A stretch of DNA of 64,000 bases, taken from contig CACYGL010000001.1 of assembly GCA_902773995.1 (NCBI GenBank), positions 1 to 64,000 of the forward strand, given 5' to 3'. The translations under genes and the position numbers were made by a program. This document shows positions 4,294 to 14,016 of this stretch, piece by piece. Within the stretch, counting starts at the first letter, position 1. Each line of letters begins with the position of its first letter. The notes beneath the pieces were generated by a model. It had not been told where the DNA came from. It saw only the letters and a program-made list of their open reading frames with translations, and ran no database searches. This stretch comes from an uncultured Coriobacteriaceae bacterium (GTDB lineage: Bacteria; Actinomycetota; Coriobacteriia; Coriobacteriales; Atopobiaceae).

Positions 4294-5069
4294 GTGTGCT
4301 CCTTCACGGAATAGAGGGGTACGAACGGGATTATGATTGGTGTCGCGGACTTGTACTTCTGGTACTCCGGGTTGTCTCCGTAGTTCTTGTCCTGCCTAAT
4401 CTCCAGGCGGCGCGCCCCGCCAAACATGACGTAAATGATGCCCAGATAGCCGAGGATGGCGCAGATCCATTGAGCGGCGTTGGCGTACACGGAGAGCCCG
4501 GAGACAAAGACGCCGGTCCAGAAGACCATCTCGCCAAAGTAGTTGGGGCATCTCACCAGGCGGAAGAGGCCGGTGTCAACAAAGCGCCTGGGGTTTGCCT
4601 TCTTCGCGCGGTTCTTCTGCAGGTCGGCCGTGGTCTCCAGGGCGAGTCCCGCGGCAGAAATCAGCAGGCCAACAATGCAGAGGACATCGGTACCGCGGTC
4701 GCCTTCCAGGCGGAACAGGATGGGCGACGTCTGCAGCACATAGAGCAGCGAGGCAGAGACCCAGATGCCCACCTTGGCTACGGCTGACACGCCCTCGTTG
4801 GACTTGACCTCGCCCTTCATGCGACGGTTGTAGGCGGTCTTAACGTCGCGGTAGATAAGGTACCCAGCAAGCCGACATCCGTAGACAACGAGCAGGACGC
4901 ACTGGAGCGCGGTTCCCACGGTGAGGGAGCCACCGTACATCACCAGGAGGCCAATGCCAATAAGGGCGATGGCCGCTCCATAGCCTATGGAGATGAACCA
5001 CACATACTTGTGGAATCCGCAAGAGCTGGCGACAAGCGCCAGGACGAGAAGGATGAGAAAGACGTTCAT
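4278..5069 (-). CDS. DUF1295 / steroid 5-alpha-reductase-like membrane protein
   Basis: A 263-residue multi-pass membrane protein. Its second half has the family signature: GLFRLVRCPNYFGEMVFWTG (about residues 165-190), where the Arg-x-Pro-Asn-Tyr-x-Gly-Glu core matches DUF1295 and isoprenylcysteine methyltransferase-like proteins, and a C-terminal amphipathic segment with YQKYKSATPIIIPF. Relatives reduce or methylate lipid-like substrates; the bacterial substrate is not known. The start has a GAGG site 8 nt upstream. It is the first gene of a two-gene minus-strand operon. Confidence 0.8.
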   Translation of the reverse strand: MNVFLILLVLALVASSCGFHKYVWFISIGYGAAIALIGIGLLVMYGGSLTVGTALQCVLLVVYGCRLAGYLIYRDVKTAYNRRMKGEVKSNEGVSAVAKVGIWVSASLLYVLQTSPILFRLEGDRGTDVLCIVGLLISAAGLALETTADLQKNRAKKANPRRFVDTGLFRLVRCPNYFGEMVFWTGVFVSGLSVYANAAQWICAILGYLGIIYVMFGGARRLEIRQDKNYGDNPEYQKYKSATPIIIPFVPLYSVKEHTWLVA

Positions 5070-5415
5070 GCTGGTACCTCGGGTTTTGACGATGACACTG
5101 GAAGGACGGGCAGGTGCCGCCTGTGAGAGAGACGCACGCCTCGGCAGGCGAAGGAGCCCTCACCATTCTAGGGTCATTTTTTCCGTCGTGCGGCATCTCA
5201 TACCGCTCCGCTATTCCCGATTGGCTCCCCGGGGCCATCATTATTAAGCTGTTTCGCTTTGGCCAGAGGGCTTGAACGTCTGTTTGTTTTCTCTCTTCTC
5301 AATGCATAGCCACGTTATAATACTTGTTCTTTTTTCGTTTTGCGTATTAGTGTGTTCCAACTACTTGGTGTAGAAGCTGAAAAGCTCATGGGGGGATAAC
5401 GGAAAGGATTTACAG
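5070..5415. other. Divergent intergenic region
   Basis: No gene is visible. The plus-facing half becomes AT-rich and contains a perfect -10 hexamer TATAAT (5316-5321) about 95 bp before the broken secreted-protein gene, without a convincing -35. The minus-facing half should hold the promoter of the DUF1295-like operon; none is clear. Confidence 0.4.
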
Positions 5416-5777
5416 ATGAGAAAAAGCTCTGCTAATTCTTGAGCGCCTTGCTTGTCTTCAGCACGTGCATGCCGGGAGGAACGGTCCGGACGTTCGCTGA
5501 TGACGGAGGCACTCCATCCGCTGTGGTGGAGAGCTCTGACAATGACAATGACCAGGACAAGGCAGACAATTCCGCCACGACAGGTGCCCAGGACTCCACT
5601 TCACCCGACACTTCTGTCTCCGACGGGGAGACTCAGGGTGGTGCTGCTGCCGCCAACACGACCGGCGCTGTTGCGAGCGCTGCCCCAAGCCTCGCTCCCG
5701 CGTCTCTTACAGCACGCGTAAATGGGAAATCCCGATGCAGACGCCGTGTCTGGCACTGCATCGGGATTATTTCTTAA
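5416..5777 (+). pseudogene. Frameshifted, truncated secreted-protein gene
   Basis: ATG 5416 is preceded by GGAAAGGA and begins MRKSSANS, then stops at 5440. One frame over, from 5439, the reading continues as a hydrophobic signal-peptide core (LSALLVFSTC), then a long Ser/Thr/Asp/Ala-rich linker (about residues 25-95) like the linkers of the secreted wall enzymes at 49391-55813. A single-base shift therefore separates the signal-peptide n-region from its core. The frame runs into a terminator hairpin at 5728-5768 with no functional domain after the linker. It is probably a relic of a DUF5648-type surface protein; that identity is inferred. Confidence 0.55.
5728..5775 (+). terminator. Intrinsic terminator
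   Basis: Perfect 12-bp stem (5728-5739 with 5757-5768, arm AATCCCGATGCA), 17-nt loop, then ATTTCTT. It closes the broken secreted gene and separates it from the convergent TetR gene. Confidence 0.75.
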
Positions 5778-5827
5778 AGTATATATGTATTGCAGTTGCA
5801 TATCGCTCACACGTTGTGCTGGCTCTC

Positions 5828-6397
5828 CTAGTACAGCACCTTGCGAATCATGGCGACAAGAGCCTTGCAGTCGCCCCGGCCAAGGACCAGGAGGGATATT
5901 AGTTGCTGGGTCACAAGCTCAGCGAGACCCTCCTTTGTCAAGCCGCCATCGAACGCATCCTCGCGCACTCCGTTATCGGACTCAAGCGCGCTGAGCATGC
6001 TGCTCTCAAGCCGCCCAATGAAGGTTTGCATCATTTCTTTTCCCTCGAAGCGTTGGTCTCGCTCTTTGGTAAGGCCAAGCACGTGGGCGGGGAGAAACCC
6101 TGGATACCGGGCCATGCCCGCTTGCGCGCCTTGGAAGGCCCTCTCGACGTGTGAGGCGAAGTCCTTCTCGTCACGCTTGCCCTTCCCGGCATCAAAGCTG
6201 AGAATGTCCGACCAAACGTCTGCCGTGACAGCTAGAGCCAGGGCATCTTTCCCCGGGAAGTAGTTGTAAAGGGTTCCGGGAGCCACGCCGCAGGCGGAGG
6301 CAACGGAACGTACATTGACGCCAGCGAGCCCTCGCTCCCTAACGATTGCGCGGCATGCCTCCAAAATGGTCTCTCTCGACGTTGACCGGGGGTTCAT
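5828..6397 (-). CDS. TetR/AcrR family transcriptional regulator
   Basis: A 189-residue protein with a TetR DNA-binding domain at residues 7-55 (VNVRSVASACGVAPGTLYNY followed by FPGKDAL) and a helical ligand domain of the usual length with no assignable ligand. It lies 9 nt after the 7-TM protein gene and is transcribed with it. The palindrome at 7162-7182 upstream of that operon has the TGAAC-N3-GTTCA form known for TetR-type operators, so autorepression is likely. The inducer is unknown. Confidence 0.9.
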   Translation of the reverse strand: MNPRSTSRETILEACRAIVRERGLAGVNVRSVASACGVAPGTLYNYFPGKDALALAVTADVWSDILSFDAGKGKRDEKDFASHVERAFQGAQAGMARYPGFLPAHVLGLTKERDQRFEGKEMMQTFIGRLESSMLSALESDNGVREDAFDGGLTKEGLAELVTQQLISLLVLGRGDCKALVAMIRKVLY

Positions 6398-6406
6398 TGC
6401 AAGCTC

Positions 6407-7111
6407 CTACAGCACGTTGAGAAGTGAGAGACCCATCCAGATAATCCACATGTACATCACCGTCTTGGGAAGCATGAGTGCCCCAACTGCGGGCTTGCGC
6501 TTGGCGAGGAAGGTGACGGGAAGGTAGAACCCAAAACTGAGCGCGATGGCGATGCACATGCGCCAGAGGCCGTACCCGCCAGTGTTACCCGAGATGGCGA
6601 ATAGAGCAATTACAAGGATTCCGGTGATGGCAAAGGGGATGTTTCTGTAGAGGGACCAACGCAGGTTCTCCTTGTTCGAAAACCAATCGTTCTGCGGGAA
6701 GAAGCAAATCACAATCCTCATGGCTGCGGTGAGGAAGATTAGTGCGGGAATGGCGGGGGAGGCCTCGATTGTCGGGAATATCTGCCTCCAGATGAAGTAG
6801 AGCAGCACGTAGAACACCGTCATGGTCACAGAGGTTATTGCGGTGCCCATACCGAGCTTGCGCTGCGTGTCATCCTGGACGCCACAGAGGTGCATCTGGA
6901 CTCTGGGGAGAAGGTGGAACGCGTCTCCGCCGCCAAGGCAGAGGGTGAGCGCTCCGTAGAGGAGGAAGACGGGCCGACCGTTGGCCTGAGTGAAGAAGAT
7001 GATTGCTGCGACAAGGTCGTAGATGAGGTACGCGATGTCAAAGAAGCTCTCGCCGATGCGCATGCCACGTGGCATGGATTCTTGTTTTGAAATTGTCTTC
7101 GAGTTACTCAT
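6407..7111 (-). CDS. Hypothetical 7-TM membrane protein in a TetR-controlled operon
   Basis: A 234-residue protein with seven predicted membrane segments and a short charged N-terminus. The start MSNSKT at 7111 is chosen for its GGAGGGGA site 5 nt upstream; the in-frame ATG five codons earlier lacks one. I do not recognise a catalytic motif; His and Gln/Asn residues in the second loop (GGGDAFHLLPRVQMHL) could bind metal or a cofactor but this is speculation. Co-transcription with the TetR gene suggests an inducible transport, lipid or stress role. Confidence 0.8.
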   Translation of the reverse strand: MSNSKTISKQESMPRGMRIGESFFDIAYLIYDLVAAIIFFTQANGRPVFLLYGALTLCLGGGDAFHLLPRVQMHLCGVQDDTQRKLGMGTAITSVTMTVFYVLLYFIWRQIFPTIEASPAIPALIFLTAAMRIVICFFPQNDWFSNKENLRWSLYRNIPFAITGILVIALFAISGNTGGYGLWRMCIAIALSFGFYLPVTFLAKRKPAVGALMLPKTVMYMWIIWMGLSLLNVL

Positions 7112-7438
7112 TGCGGTCCCCTCCAACGATTGGCGGGCTTGCCCACCGGGTGTATGACGTCAACGTGAACAGCGTTCATGTTGAAATCGGACATCGCGGG
7201 AGTCAAGCGGGGAAGAGCCGCGGGCATCCGAATGCCACAATTGGACTGGAAAGACTGCATCCGTGTCCCTAAACGCACTACATCCGCTAACCAAATTGTC
7301 TTAATTGTGTCGCGGCCCTTTGCCATAATGTGGATACCTGATGGGCCTGAACAAATCCCGTCGCCCCGTTCGGCGCACCGCCTTTGGTAACGGGGGTCGT
7401 TTGGGAGAACTTGCCTGGGCAGAAAGGAAGTGCTTGCC
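7112..7438. other. Divergent promoter region
   Basis: Holds the TetR-type operator (7162-7182) for the leftward operon. For the rightward SPFH cluster a possible -10 CATAAT (7324-7329) with a weak -35 (TTAATT, 7301-7306, 17-bp spacing) is seen. No gene is visible. Confidence 0.4.
7162..7182. promoter_or_regulatory. TetR-type operator
   Basis: Two 9-bp arms (7162-7170 and 7174-7182) around AGC. They are reverse complements except for one G:T position and have the core TGAAC-AGC-GTTCA. The site is 51 bp upstream of the leftward operon that encodes a TetR-type protein. Confidence 0.6.
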
Positions 7439-8848
7439 ATGTCACTGTTTCACAGCGATAACCCCAAGGAGGAGCAGCATAGCGGCATCCTGGGTGCCTT
7501 CTCGGTAGATAACATCAAATGGGAGCCAGAGGATGTCGAAGGCGCGTCTCTAGTTGCGTTTCGGTATCCGTATGAGGACTTCCCCAATGGCTCGTATCTC
7601 CAGGTGGCCCAGTCTCAGATGGCTGTCTTTACCAATAACCTTGGTGCAGACAGCTCCTCCGACGGCTCTGCAGGTCAAAACTCGCAGGTAAGCGTTTTCG
7701 TGGGGCCCTGCAAGATCAAGCTCGACACGGGCGATAGCCGTTTCGCGCCGTTCCGCAACGTGACACACTCACTTACGGGTGGATCGTCCGCATTCCACTC
7801 CGTTGTCTATTTCATCAACACCAACTATATGAACGAGCTTCGATGGGGGACAACAGACCCTATCCTTGTGCAGGACCCCGAGGAAGAGGTTAACGTTCAC
7901 GTTCGCGCTTACGGCCTCTTTGGCGCGCACATCGAACAGAACGATTCCGGACTTGCGCCAATCCAGGCACGCAAGTTTCTCGTGAAGGTCGTTGGCACGA
8001 GGGGCCAGTACTCCCAAGAAGAGCTCACGTCGTTCATGCGTGCCAAGATCTTGGAGTATGTGCCAGACCTTCTCGCCAACGCCATTACCGAGGAGAACAT
8101 CCCCATTCTCAAGATCTCTGCCCACCTGAGCGACTTCTCCAACGTCATGAAGGACAAACTCGTCGACTACTTCGACGCCTTTGGCCTTACGTTGGATAAT
8201 TTCTCGTTCAACAGCATCAAACCCTTCGAAGAAGATCTTGCTGCCATCAATGAGATGAAGATTCAGCGCAAGAGGAGCATCCTCGAGGCGCAGGGCAACG
8301 CCGCGCAGATGGATATCGAGTCCGAGGCGCTTGCTCGCAAGCGTGCCCGCGAGGGGTACTCCTACCAACAGGAGCGCGGTATGGACGTCATGCAGGCGGC
8401 GGCCTCCAACGAGGGCGGTGGTTCAGCTCAGTTCGTTGGCGCCGGCATGGGACTTGGCATGGGCGTTGGCATGGGAGGTGCCATGGGCGTGGGATTCGCC
8501 AACCTCGCAAGCGAGACCATTGGTGCCGCCTCGGGCGTGTCCGGCAACGGTGCAGGCTCGGACCGATCTGCTGGCGCTGGCCCCGCGTCCGTCGGCGCCG
8601 AGGGGTCGCAGGCGATCTGTCCCAAGTGCGGTCACGCAAACCCTGCCGGGGCGAAGTTCTGCCTTGAGTGCGGGAGCAAGCTTGAGAGCGGGCGAGTCTG
8701 CCCTTCGTGTGGCAAGGTCAACCCTTCTAACGCCAAGTTCTGCCTTGAGTGCGGAACAAGGCTTGTAAGCCCTACCTGTCCTAAGTGCGGTGCGCAGCTC
8801 CCCGAGGGCACCAAGTTCTGCCCCAACTGCGGTGCTCAGATTCAGTAA
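7439..8848 (+). CDS. SPFH-domain protein with three C-terminal zinc ribbons (YdjI-like)
   Basis: A 469-residue protein. Residues about 20-270 resemble the SPFH ('virion core protein'-like) family that includes Bacillus YdjI, followed by a charged helical stretch (270-325), a Gly/Met-rich linker (about 335-355) and three zinc ribbons, each with two Cys-x-x-Cys knuckles (CPKCG, CPSCG, CPKCG with FCLECG or FCPNCG), at about 395-469. ATG 7439 has AGGAAG 8 nt upstream. Known relatives recruit PspA-type proteins to stressed membranes; a similar scaffold role is inferred. First gene of a five-gene same-strand cluster with short spacing. Confidence 0.85.
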   Translation: MSLFHSDNPKEEQHSGILGAFSVDNIKWEPEDVEGASLVAFRYPYEDFPNGSYLQVAQSQMAVFTNNLGADSSSDGSAGQNSQVSVFVGPCKIKLDTGDSRFAPFRNVTHSLTGGSSAFHSVVYFINTNYMNELRWGTTDPILVQDPEEEVNVHVRAYGLFGAHIEQNDSGLAPIQARKFLVKVVGTRGQYSQEELTSFMRAKILEYVPDLLANAITEENIPILKISAHLSDFSNVMKDKLVDYFDAFGLTLDNFSFNSIKPFEEDLAAINEMKIQRKRSILEAQGNAAQMDIESEALARKRAREGYSYQQERGMDVMQAAASNEGGGSAQFVGAGMGLGMGVGMGGAMGVGFANLASETIGAASGVSGNGAGSDRSAGAGPASVGAEGSQAICPKCGHANPAGAKFCLECGSKLESGRVCPSCGKVNPSNAKFCLECGTRLVSPTCPKCGAQLPEGTKFCPNCGAQIQ

Positions 8849-8860
8849 GGAGGCATGGTC

Positions 8861-9562
8861 ATGAGCGAGTCCACTAAGCGAGTAATCATTGGCGAGGCAA
8901 TCGCCGAGGTGGCATGGTTCATCGTCATGCTCACCGCCATTGGCATCTTCACGAATCCCATCGTTTTTGTCGTCTCCATCATGTTTGGCGTGCTGGCGTT
9001 TGTGGCATCGGCGGTGTCTGTTCTTTTCAACGACCGTGAGCTGCGTGCCTCCGGCGCTCTGGTCGAGGTGAGGTCGCTCCCCATCACGGTGTCCCTTGCG
9101 TATTTTGTCGCCGCCCTCGTTGCCAACACATTCTTTTGCGTGTGGTCCGCTGTCTTGCTTGACGCGACTGCCCCCATTGTGGTGAACGTCGTCCTTCTCG
9201 CGCTCCTGGTCGTCATTAGGATGGGCGCGGCCTCGTATCAGCGCGTTGCCGAGCAGAACGTCGAGAAGGTCTCTGCCAACGTTGCGGGTACTTCTTCCAT
9301 AGGACAGGAGATTTCTCTCCTGCTTTCACAGGCGGAGAACCCTGAGGTCAAGAGCGAGCTCCACAAGCTCAAGGAGGAGTTTGACTTTAGCCCGAGTGTT
9401 TCTGGGGCTAACGCGCGCATAGTCGAGCAGGAGTTTCTCTCCGTGCTCTCTGCCGTTGAAGCCTCCATGGCGCGGGGTGACACGCCAGAGGCGACGCTTG
9501 CCCTTGTCAAGAAGGCAGAGGGTGTCTGGAAGAAGCGCAATGCCGCCATGCAAGCACGGTAA
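8861..9562 (+). CDS. Hypothetical protein with 4 TM segments and a helical cytoplasmic tail
   Basis: A 233-residue protein with two hydrophobic hairpins (about residues 9-55 and 72-125), then a soluble helical tail rich in Glu/Lys (about 130-233). I recognise no family. ATG 8861 fits a TAAGGAGG site 7 nt upstream; the earlier ATG 8855 is too close to it. It starts 12 nt after the SPFH gene, so it is almost surely co-expressed and may be that scaffold's membrane anchor (inference). Confidence 0.75.
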   Translation: MSESTKRVIIGEAIAEVAWFIVMLTAIGIFTNPIVFVVSIMFGVLAFVASAVSVLFNDRELRASGALVEVRSLPITVSLAYFVAALVANTFFCVWSAVLLDATAPIVVNVVLLALLVVIRMGAASYQRVAEQNVEKVSANVAGTSSIGQEISLLLSQAENPEVKSELHKLKEEFDFSPSVSGANARIVEQEFLSVLSAVEASMARGDTPEATLALVKKAEGVWKKRNAAMQAR

Positions 9563-9579
9563 GTCCGGGGGTGTGAATA

Positions 9580-10395
9580 GTGGAAGTGCAAGGACTTTCC
9601 TGCCATGGCTGCGGAAGCACGGATGTCGAATTTGATCCCAAGACCCGCAAGATTCACTGCAACCAGTGCGGGCGCGAGGAGTACTACTCTCGAGCGCAGC
9701 TTGGAGCAACGGGGAAGGTGGCGTTTGCAAAGGACAACGCCATCCAGTTCTTCAAGGAGGGAAACTGGTCAAGTGCCTGCAAGTTTGCCAACGATGTGCT
9801 CAACACCATGCAGGACAACGCTTCCGCGCTTTTTATAGTTGCCTACTGCGATGAGTTTCAAGATGGGCGGAGCGGCGCAATTGATGAGTTCTTCGGTAAG
9901 GTGAGCCTCATGGCCTTGGAGTACGATGAGGTATGCGACCTCATCGACCTTTTCGAGAGCTCGCTCTACAACATGCGTGACTACGAGGCCCAGATGGTTA
10001 CGGTAGTCATCGAGAACATGCAGAGTGCTGAAGATCGGCAGACCCTCGAGGGCTTCATTGAGACCGTCTGTCCATACTGCATCTCTAAATATGCTTCGGA
10101 AGACTTCCTTACAGACGAGCGGGCTGCACTCTACCAAGACATAGCAAGTCATTGTGATGTGCCAAAGACCTGCTTTGCCTTGCTCAGGGGAATAAAAGAG
10201 AACCCCGACTCGCCCTATCGGGCAGGGTCGTTCCAGATGCGGGCACACACGGCTTACTTTTTTGAACACTACGTGGAACCCGTCGGACGCATTCTTCGGG
10301 AGATGAAGCCGAGCTCGTTCAAGCCAAAGTTCATCCAGGCTTACCAGCAGGTGTGTGACCAATACCAAAGTGATGCCAGCGCCGCAATGGGATAG
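9580..10395 (+). CDS. Zinc-ribbon protein with helical repeat-like body, unknown function
   Basis: A 271-residue protein starting with a four-cysteine zinc ribbon (CHGCG at about residues 8-12 and CNQCG at about 28-32), followed by an all-helical body whose first part (ColdAIQFFKEGNWSSAC-like pattern, residues 50-110) resembles TPR packing. A second CPYC pair sits near residue 165. GTG 9580 is preceded by a purine-rich but weak site. Cluster position and the shared zinc-ribbon feature tie it to the SPFH gene. No catalytic motif was seen. Confidence 0.7.
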   Translation: MEVQGLSCHGCGSTDVEFDPKTRKIHCNQCGREEYYSRAQLGATGKVAFAKDNAIQFFKEGNWSSACKFANDVLNTMQDNASALFIVAYCDEFQDGRSGAIDEFFGKVSLMALEYDEVCDLIDLFESSLYNMRDYEAQMVTVVIENMQSAEDRQTLEGFIETVCPYCISKYASEDFLTDERAALYQDIASHCDVPKTCFALLRGIKENPDSPYRAGSFQMRAHTAYFFEHYVEPVGRILREMKPSSFKPKFIQAYQQVCDQYQSDASAAMG

Positions 10396-10461
10396 CGCCT
10401 GCAACTTGGCATGTATGGAGTCAACAATACGGGCTGTTAATATCGCGAGAGGTGGGACCAG

Positions 10462-12117
10462 ATGGCCAGCAACAACGTGGTGTCGGTGAACCTGAGCGGC
10501 GTCGAGAACGCGCTCAGCCGTCTAAGCAGTCAGGTCAGTGCCGTCGACAACAAGGTGGACAACGTTTCCAGTGAGGTTAGGAACCTCAAGTCGGAACTGG
10601 AGCGTCTGCGAAGCGATTTTCTCGACATGATGGAGGAGCAGCGCCGTGCTTCTTCATTGGAGCAGGCAACCACTGAGCTCGTGAGCGTGCGTCAGGAGAT
10701 GGATAAGAAGTTTGGCAATTACGGCGTGGTGAGAAACACGATGGTCGGCATCCTTCAGGCTACGGATGCTGCCCTCGTGAGGAAGGCGACAATTACCACG
10801 GTTTCCGAGGAGCTGATGATTTCGACTCCGGACTACTGGCTCGCACCCGTTCTTGTGGCCCTGGCCGCATGGATCAACAACAACCGTGACCTCGCGGAGA
10901 GGGCAATTCGCGAGGCGGTGCGGCGTGACAATGAGCACACGTCGCTCGCCATGGCCCTCATCTGCCGCAGGAACCATCGAACGGCGACCTGCTACGAGTG
11001 GTTGGCCCGCTACTTCTCGACTCAGGATGCAGCACGCATCGACTCCGACTCCATGGTCTACATCGACGCCTATGTGAATGGAATCTTTGGCACCGACGAG
11101 AAGCACCTATGCGACGATTTCATGGCTCGCTGGATGGACCAGGTCAGATGCTCGACACCCGATTTCGAGGACAAGCAGGCAAAGAGCTGGGCCGACTACT
11201 TTCAGACGTACTACGCGGACGAAGGCTCCAAGTATCCTGCCCTTAAAAGTGTTGTTAAGGAGTTTGGATATATTGACAAGTACCTGGGCAAACTCGATGC
11301 AATCAATCAGATCTCTGACAGTTTTTCCACCATCAATAATTCCGAGGTAAATGCGCGCTCGCTCGAGGAGCAGGTCGATCGGCGACTAATGGATCTGGTG
11401 AATTCCGATGACCCCAAGGAGCGTCAGCTCAGGGCCCAGGAGGAGTACCTCCTTGCGGTAAAGGCATGCGAGGGTGATATCGACAGGGCGCGTCGCATTG
11501 TGAAAGAGCGTGACACCGAGAAGAAGCGCCAGACCATGAATATCGTGGAACAGATGGTGCGTGTCGTGAAGGACGGGAGTGGGAATACGGAGTCGTATAA
11601 GAAGAAGACTGCCGTCCGCTTCTTGAGCCCCTATATCAACAAGGGCTTCAGCATGTTCAAGGGTGATGATGCGACATCCTTCCCCGACCAGGCTACGTTG
11701 GAGATTAACGGCTGGACGGGAGCTTCGAGGACTGGAGAAGAGGGAGAGACGCTGCGAAGCAGCTACACGACGTTTCTTGAGCAGCATAAGGCCGAGGAGC
11801 TCGCAAAGGCAACGAGTGGCCCTGATACCAAAAAACTCAAGTTGGCAGGCCTCATTACCCTCGTCGCTGGAATAATCCTTGCCTTCCCGTTGATGCCAGT
11901 GGGAATCATTGCAATTGCCGTTGGCTGCTACCTCATGCTCCACGGGCGTGGGATTGAGGGGCGTCGCGAACAAGCCAAGGAAGATATCGAGAAGAAGTAT
12001 TCCAAGCTTGCAGATGAGGGGCTCCATGAGATTGACGTTGCGTTGAGCCAATGGCAAAAGGCGAGGTCTTCTGCCATGGAACTATCGGGGCTTCTCGACA
12101 TGCAAAACGTTGCGTAA
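10462..12117 (+). CDS. Coiled-coil protein with C-terminal membrane hairpin, unknown function
   Basis: A 551-residue protein. Residues about 10-75 form a heptad-rich coiled coil (SSQVSAVDNKVDNVSSEV). A large helical middle region follows, then two adjacent hydrophobic segments at about 458-495 that would make a membrane hairpin, and a charged C-terminal helix. There is no GTPase P-loop, so it is not a dynamin despite the superficial layout. ATG 10462 has GAGAGGTGGG upstream. It is in the SPFH cluster, 66 nt after the zinc-ribbon gene. Confidence 0.75.
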   Translation: MASNNVVSVNLSGVENALSRLSSQVSAVDNKVDNVSSEVRNLKSELERLRSDFLDMMEEQRRASSLEQATTELVSVRQEMDKKFGNYGVVRNTMVGILQATDAALVRKATITTVSEELMISTPDYWLAPVLVALAAWINNNRDLAERAIREAVRRDNEHTSLAMALICRRNHRTATCYEWLARYFSTQDAARIDSDSMVYIDAYVNGIFGTDEKHLCDDFMARWMDQVRCSTPDFEDKQAKSWADYFQTYYADEGSKYPALKSVVKEFGYIDKYLGKLDAINQISDSFSTINNSEVNARSLEEQVDRRLMDLVNSDDPKERQLRAQEEYLLAVKACEGDIDRARRIVKERDTEKKRQTMNIVEQMVRVVKDGSGNTESYKKKTAVRFLSPYINKGFSMFKGDDATSFPDQATLEINGWTGASRTGEEGETLRSSYTTFLEQHKAEELAKATSGPDTKKLKLAGLITLVAGIILAFPLMPVGIIAIAVGCYLMLHGRGIEGRREQAKEDIEKKYSKLADEGLHEIDVALSQWQKARSSAMELSGLLDMQNVA

Positions 12118-12159
12118 TGACAAACTCTCAATTCGATGGCTGTAAACAGGGGCGATGAG

Positions 12160-12371
12160 ATGAGCGAGAGCAACACTATTTCGAGCAACATGACGGCAGC
12201 TAATGGCGTAGCGCCAAGTACGGTCGATGGCATGGACGCGTTTTCTGAACTTAGTGACATGTTCGCCGAGGAGGACGAACGGTTGAAGAAGTCCGAGTCC
12301 AACGTGTTGAGCCAAAACCTGTCGGGATTTGCCAGCTGCTTTCCCGATTGGGACCTGCATCCGCCCGTGGA

Positions 12372-12375
<4 letters not shown>
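12160..12375 (+). CDS. Small acidic protein with conserved-looking FPDWDLHPP tail
   Basis: A 71-residue protein, acidic, with a helical middle (LSDMFAEEDERLKKSE) and a C-terminal tail CFPDWDLHPPVD. ATG 12160 is preferred because of the GGGGCGATGAG purine run; ATG 12136 has no site. It is the last gene of the SPFH cluster and its stop overlaps the convergent folP stop by 4 nt. I do not know the family. A linear C-terminal motif like this could be a docking peptide for a cluster partner (inference). Confidence 0.6.
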
Positions 12376-13556
<1,181 letters not shown>

Positions 13557-13796: not shown

Positions 13797-13871
13797 TCCC
13801 CGGTGGCGCAGTGGTAGCGCAGCTGACTGTTAATCAGCGTGTCGCAGGTTCGAACCCTGCCCGGGGAGCCA
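13797..13871 (+). tRNA. tRNA-Asn (anticodon GTT)
   Basis: Acceptor stem TCCCCGG (13797-13803) pairs with CCGGGGA (13861-13867), followed by G and an encoded CCA end. The anticodon loop CTGTTAA gives GTT; the T arm is GCAGG-TTCGAAC-CCTGC. A canonical promoter precedes it and a terminator follows. No integrase gene or duplicated 3' end is visible, so there is no sign that an element is integrated here. Confidence 0.97.
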
Positions 13872-13922: not shown

Positions 13923-14016
13923 GCGGGATTATTCTCCCCGGCATTGGGATTCCATTGCCGGGCAATGGAATCCCACTCCCCGGCAATGGAATCCCAATGC
14001 CGGGGAACTAAATCCC
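13923..14016. repeat. Large palindromic element with perfect 27-bp inverted repeat
   Basis: Arms 13936-13962 and 13979-14005 are exact reverse complements. The 16-nt loop repeats part of the arm (CAATGGAATCCCA), so alternative foldings exist. Partial outer arms (CGGGATT near 13924-13930 and AATCCCG near 14010-14016) extend it. It lies between tRNA-Asn and the ABC exporter and contains no frame. Confidence 0.7.

Follow-up and report, generated by a model that had tools for sequence, protein, structure and literature searches.

Five closely spaced genes (A to E) raise the question of whether they constitute a single functional unit and what such a unit might do. They lie in the window, by which we mean the whole stretch of 64,000 nucleotides that was analysed, from an uncultured Coriobacteriaceae bacterium (contig CACYGL010000001.1, assembly GCA_902773995.1). 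The original prediction had described an SPFH protein with three zinc ribbons, a four-transmembrane (TM) protein, a second zinc-ribbon helical protein, a coiled-coil protein with a membrane hairpin and a small acidic protein, encoded in a fixed order with tight spacing, and had read them as a membrane-associated assembly with repeated zinc-ribbon adaptors. The five-gene cluster is confirmed. The description overlooked the conserved tail of E, signs that the unit had been transferred horizontally, and the fact that an operon with an AAA ATPase has the D-E core in common with it. No account of this operon was found in the open-access literature. Details of the features are presented in Table 1.

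Table 1. Features of the five-gene unit and its flanking segments (positions of the window).
Feature	Position	Strand	Description
A	7439-8848	+	SPFH (Band_7_1) protein, three C-terminal zinc ribbons, 0 TM, 469 aa
B	8861-9562	+	Four-TM protein with soluble helical C-terminal part, 233 aa
C	9580-10395	+	N-terminal zinc ribbon, then a TPR-like solenoid of helices; 271 aa, starts with GTG
D	10462-12117	+	Coiled-coil protein; long N-terminal helix, TPR-like helices, beta hairpin, C-terminal membrane hairpin, 551 aa
E	12136-12375	+	Small, acidic, probably disordered; C-terminal tail GFASCFPDWDLHPPVD
Upstream segment	7185-7438	+	Missing in congeners, whose alignment stops at 7184; presumed operon promoter region
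Transferable segment (whole five-gene unit)	7185-12423	.	Missing in congeners

All five reading frames are open and follow one another on the plus strand with intergenic gaps of 12, 17, 66 and 18 bp, so that the order and the tight spacing claimed earlier are borne out. The start of E is more likely the ATG at 12160, which has a better ribosome-binding site and would give a protein of 71 aa and a D-E gap of 42 bp. E, which carries 15 acidic and 4 basic residues and is thus as small and acidic as had been claimed, meets the folP gene of the minus strand tail-to-tail with an overlap of 4 bp. A consensus sigma-70 scan of the upstream segment (7185-7438) matched no promoter, no stress promoter was recognised upstream of A, and an Rfam search gave no match.

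Protein A matches the Pfam family PF13421 (Band_7_1) with an E-value of 4e-25, and the DZR and Zn_Ribbon_1 families are also matched. Its zinc ribbons are made up of six CxxC motifs, all of which are kept in 36 of 40 homologues, and 39 of the 40 are likewise devoid of TM segments. Four hydrophobic segments are visible in the hydropathy of B, four TM segments are also present in 33 of its 39 homologues, and no Pfam family was matched consistently by B and these homologues. The zinc ribbon of C is formed by C8, C11, C27 and C30, which are invariant across 43 homologues, while the rest of the protein is all helix without a TM segment in an AF2 model (pLDDT 91.7). Weak matches of C to TPR proteins are at levels that helical proteins attain by chance; its sequence similarity to Ec2ApeA is weak (E 0.04) and was also put down to chance.

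The AF2 model of D (pLDDT 84.0) consists of a helix at residues 11-99, helical repeats, a beta hairpin (residues 411-422), a membrane hairpin and a long C-terminal helix. A hydrophobic segment at residues 467-485 is located inside the modelled helical hairpin 456-498. The helices at residues of about 83-229 reach VIA Z values of 7-8 to TPR proteins, which is within the noise for helical proteins, and the fold matches of C and D taken together (VIA Z 7-9; best Foldseek E 2e-3) stay within the same chance range. The label "TPR-like" is tentative because such levels are reached by chance among helical models. The model of D has no clear structural match, the ESCRT-III/PspA fold included. A structural match of residues 252-550 to the AhlB/SmhB alpha-pore toxins was at chance level only and was not counted as evidence; a match to XpaC (PF10112) and several PADLOC coiled-coil matches fell below their cut-offs and were discarded. 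The architecture predicted for A (from PF13421 and the six CxxC), for B and C (from hydropathy, the conserved cysteines and the model) and for D (from the model and the hydrophobic segment) therefore stands. No family in Pfam, NCBIfam, PADLOC or PHROGs gives B, C, D or E another role, none is matched consistently by B to E in these libraries, and the possibility that each gene already has an unrelated role finds no support.

The most distinctive feature of the unit is the C-terminus of E. The consensus LEGFASCFP[DE]WDLHPP, with the core GFAxCFPxWDLHPP at the very end of the protein, is near-invariant in 34 homologues while the rest of E is variable. When the DNA pattern P[DE]WDLxPP was searched in 392 genomes of the order, nine matched, all of them carriers of D and each with a single occurrence. 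With a strict regular expression, the tail was recognised in the open reading frame that follows D at 78 of 81 loci (43 of 44 in loci arranged as in the window, type I, and 35 of 37 in loci of a second arrangement, type II, described below) compared with 2 of 9,593 control frames. In the three loci which it missed (L054, L109 and L126), the tail is present when read by eye.

A profile search with D in a large collection of genome contigs gave 267 relatives. The type I operon was present in the same order in 46 of the best 80 of these 267 D loci and a type II operon, with the order D-E'-F-G-H, in 31, although these shares are not representative because only the best 80 of the 267 matches were kept. 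The gene-neighbourhood check proposed with the original prediction thus shows that the genes do co-occur elsewhere in a fixed order. Among the 46 type I loci, 34 were found unbroken by a simple gene caller and most of the others are cut by contig ends; the median gaps across homologous loci are 12.5, 15, 23.5 and 17 bp. A, B, C, D and E are neighbours in that order in every type I carrier examined. Hosts include Collinsella, Atopobium, Lachnospiraceae, Oscillospiraceae, Erysipelotrichaceae, Christensenella and a Spirochaetales MAG. Protein searches detected D in 13 of the order's 395 genomes and clear homologues of C in only 4 of the family's 140, the window genome counted. Exactly eight genomes of the order, out of 392, encode a full-length C; these are the same eight that carry a type I D, and the remaining C matches in the order cover the zinc ribbon or the N-terminal part only. 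A separate sample of 276 Actinomycetota genomes contained no D besides that of the window. On this comparative evidence, A to E are one real transferable unit, present in gut bacteria of several phyla.

Some loci depart from the plain type I set, by extra flanking genes or by a more distant gene content. A Collinsella locus (L027) has two more zinc-ribbon proteins directly upstream of the operon (4347-6607) and a probable toxin-antitoxin pair directly downstream (12188-12996). In genome G065 (L034, 4001-11468), the SPFH and four-TM genes adjoin a gene for a 652-aa helical membrane protein which is marginally similar to D, together with two related proteins of about 310-365 aa and a 453-aa zinc-ribbon protein; this locus is possibly a third partner set.

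Comparison with congeners reveals how the unit is inserted. In the closest one (G006), the bases matching window positions 7184 and 12424 are only about 112 bp apart, in place of a unit of 5.2 kb, and the flanks of this empty site are 94% and 91% identical to the window. Three other congeners (G005, G007 and G001) also lack the unit, and there folP adjoins the gene found at 6407-7126 in the window. The spacing of about 112 bp and the adjacency of folP indicate that the whole unit moved in a single step, either into the window genome or out of the congeners. GC content of the unit genes is 0.54-0.58 as compared to 0.63 +/- 0.04 for the other genes of the window. The tree of D proteins is discordant with taxonomy: the window D groups with those of Collinsella, a Lachnospiraceae and a Spirochaetales MAG, and two D proteins of Atopobium, which belongs to the window's own family Atopobiaceae, fall inside another Lachnospiraceae group. 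The simplest reading of these sequence comparisons is that the unit was acquired by horizontal transfer. In the window genome it is a discrete insert, and no mobile-element genes were seen there.

The type II operon shares with type I the D gene and a tailed protein, E', which ends in FAxGLPxW[DS][LI]xPPxxxVRR and often has a zinc ribbon at its N-terminus, ahead of the tail. F is about 150 aa long, G is a Ycf46/Cdc48-like AAA ATPase and H, which was not found in type I genomes, is about 165 aa. Type I and type II D proteins separate in the D tree. The type II operon is located on the Streptococcus satellite phage Javan368, on Komagataeibacter plasmids, on a Comamonas megaplasmid, on an IMG/VR contig and on chromosomes, and also occurs in a Fusobacterium record, Enterococcus, Companilactobacillus and many Clostridia; a single-sequence scan of viral sequences gave no match. 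In Javan368 (L048, 9674-14254) it fills the end of the satellite phage opposite to the integrase, where it is a candidate cargo system, and near-identical copies are present in S. oralis genomes (L111, L114 and L118). At a locus in genome G336 (L031, 1540-13772), A and B lie near a gene for a HerA-like ATPase, a tandem pair of D paralogues, a short PEWSLEPP protein ending PEWSLEPPETFLA and an AAA ATPase. By its gene content, this locus is a mixed form that combines both operon types.

The near-constant pairing of D with the tail, which hardly any control frame carries, marks D-E as a portable core that is combined with one or the other of two partner sets. D is the only partner family of E that is common to both operon types. 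Type I and type II D proteins are most alike at residues 101-150, with 58% identity; the remaining blocks of 50 residues show 13-40%. Since D is the sole family besides E in both types and has this conserved stretch, the simplest inference is that this helical region of D would read the tail of E. However, the conservation of residues 101-150 could instead reflect folding or another ligand.

Taken with the anatomy, these features lead us to a model in which the transferred five-gene unit builds a membrane-associated scaffold. A would form SPFH oligomers under the membrane, anchored by B (and D), much as YdjI depends on YdjG and YdjH. The zinc ribbons of A and C would be protein-docking adaptors, and the repeats may also dock partners. 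E would be a disordered linker or switch, bound through its [FL]PxW[DS][LI]xPP tail to the helical repeat that is conserved in D. D would then be the common working part, served by SPFH, four-TM and zinc-ribbon partners in type I or by the AAA ATPase with F and H in type II. We regard a transferred scaffold with E docked on D as the best explanation overall and give it an even chance of being correct. The earlier reading of a membrane-associated assembly with zinc-ribbon adaptors is partly supported by the sequences; membrane association and repeated zinc ribbons are consistent with all of the anatomy, with TM segments in B and D and ribbons in A and C. If such a scaffold is built, its role may be a conditional response to a membrane or envelope insult, possibly attack by phages or mobile elements. 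Envelope protection is our first choice of role but also the weakest step of the model, and we hold it only tentatively, at somewhat less than an even chance given the scaffold.

The known system closest to hand is the PspA-YdjGHI complex of B. subtilis, in which YdjI lacks TM segments, needs the membrane proteins YdjG and YdjH and recruits PspA (PMC8581546). Only A corresponds to a component of it, as a TM-less Band_7_1 SPFH protein with C-terminal zinc ribbons (PMC8581546; PMC11237479), and the original prediction had indeed offered the YdjI parallel for A alone. In both cases the SPFH gene has neighbours that encode integral membrane proteins and another zinc-ribbon protein, and the cluster may, by analogy, work in a similar way, with an anchor-less SPFH protein tied to membrane proteins. 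However, A has three ribbons as compared to one motif in YdjI, D and E are without counterpart and the gene order differs. YdjG combines two zinc ribbons with an NTF2-like domain and a TM segment, whereas C has one ribbon, no TM segment and an all-helical model. PspA-YdjGHI is induced by envelope stress (sigma-W); the scan upstream of A covered the sigma-70 consensus only. No match to PF04012 (PspA/IM30) was obtained with any of A to E, nor to the TPM domain of YdjH with A to E or the homologues of B and D. A PspA homologue was looked for elsewhere in the genome as had been suggested, and none exceeded the PF04012 cut-off, a 64-residue coiled-coil match being all that was found; as the genome is 90.8% complete, the absence of PspA is likely rather than certain. 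Since PspA, a TPM protein and a YdjG-like protein are missing, we do not class the cluster as a member of this system. It is very unlikely to be a derivative of the membrane-stress complex with D in the place of PspA: the YdjI-like form of A, the TM partners and the second zinc-ribbon protein would fit such a derivative, but B, C and D contain no TPM or PspA domain, C is helical throughout and the gene content and order are different. Flotillin/NfeD-type operons likewise encode an SPFH scaffold with membrane partners, but A has no membrane anchor of its own and no flotillin-domain match, and the partners are unrelated.

The AAA ATPase of type II invites other comparisons. A survey of PSP systems described neighbourhoods with Vps4-like AAA and TPR/TM proteins (PMC11237479), and in type II a classical AAA ATPase is similarly encoded with a membrane protein of helical repeats; the likeness is by description, as the surveyed protein has TPRs and six TM segments against one hairpin in D, and no AAA gene is present in type I. 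As regards ESCRT-III/Vps4-like remodelling, an AAA ATPase partner is likewise absent from type I operons and present in type II. One could imagine a quality-control or targeting device in which the tail is an address recognised by D (with the AAA motor in type II), so that E, or partners with the same tail, would be brought to the membrane or pulled out of it. The position of the tail at the end of an otherwise variable, disordered protein, the Cdc48/Ycf46-like ATPase and the zinc ribbon that often precedes the tail of E' all agree with this. We nevertheless consider it improbable: type I has no ATPase gene, H is missing from type I genomes, and the DNA pattern finds one tail per genome in the order, so that no cargo family is apparent. 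E resembles the FxSxx-COOH-type proteins (PMC7159879) in that it is short, varies except for a conserved peptide at its C-terminus and adjoins a larger machine, but its operon has no radical-SAM or metallopeptidase gene and its tail motif differs.

The main rival to envelope protection is defence against phages or other mobile elements. D would be a membrane-hairpin effector which E restrains or signals to by its tail, and infection would be sensed by the SPFH proteins in type I and by the AAA ATPase in type II, leading to membrane damage or shutdown. The patchy, horizontally transferred distribution and the discrete insertion in the window genome favour such an accessory system, as does the location of type II at the end of Javan368, on the Komagataeibacter and Comamonas plasmids and on the IMG/VR contig. 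However, D, E, F and H fit none of the PADLOC models. PADLOC gave no meaningful match for A to E, and the generic AAA/HerA similarity is confined to relatives. The neighbours are mostly housekeeping genes and no effector enzyme is recognisable: PADLOC matches at 1e-15 were obtained for about 4 of the 95 neighbours in type I and for few in type II, and the 190 neighbour proteins contain no recurrent extra partner and no enrichment of defence or mobile functions. We therefore judge defence to be unlikely, though with a real chance of being right.

Returning to the scaffold model, D with an FPxWDLxPP-tailed E may be central to a class of bacterial membrane machines that has not been described before. 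Either the SPFH/four-TM/zinc-ribbon set or an AAA ATPase and its two helpers would drive such a machine, with D reading the tail as a recognition code. This generalisation is speculative and in our view has slightly more against it than for it. What were scattered hypothetical proteins in widespread gut bacteria (Collinsella, Butyrivibrio and other Lachnospiraceae, and Lawsonibacter) can now be treated as a single system. Its limits are set by five genes, an empty site exists in nature, the tail motif is nearly diagnostic and mobile elements carry a sister operon. As SPFH scaffolds and an AAA motor are linked via the common core, a single peptide-binding experiment could probe the logic of both operons.

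Two further observations concern the surroundings of the unit. At 5000-5900 of the window, about 4.45 kb has been lost from the middle of a gene whose ends are kept, with the junction near 5708; congener G005 (L140), with which the window was compared, has at this position a gene of 1,563 aa starting MRKRLCYFLSALLVFSTCMPGG. A tandem repeat of 21/42 bp, in two to three copies, is located at 13934-14016, shortly downstream of the tRNA-Asn at 13797-13871.
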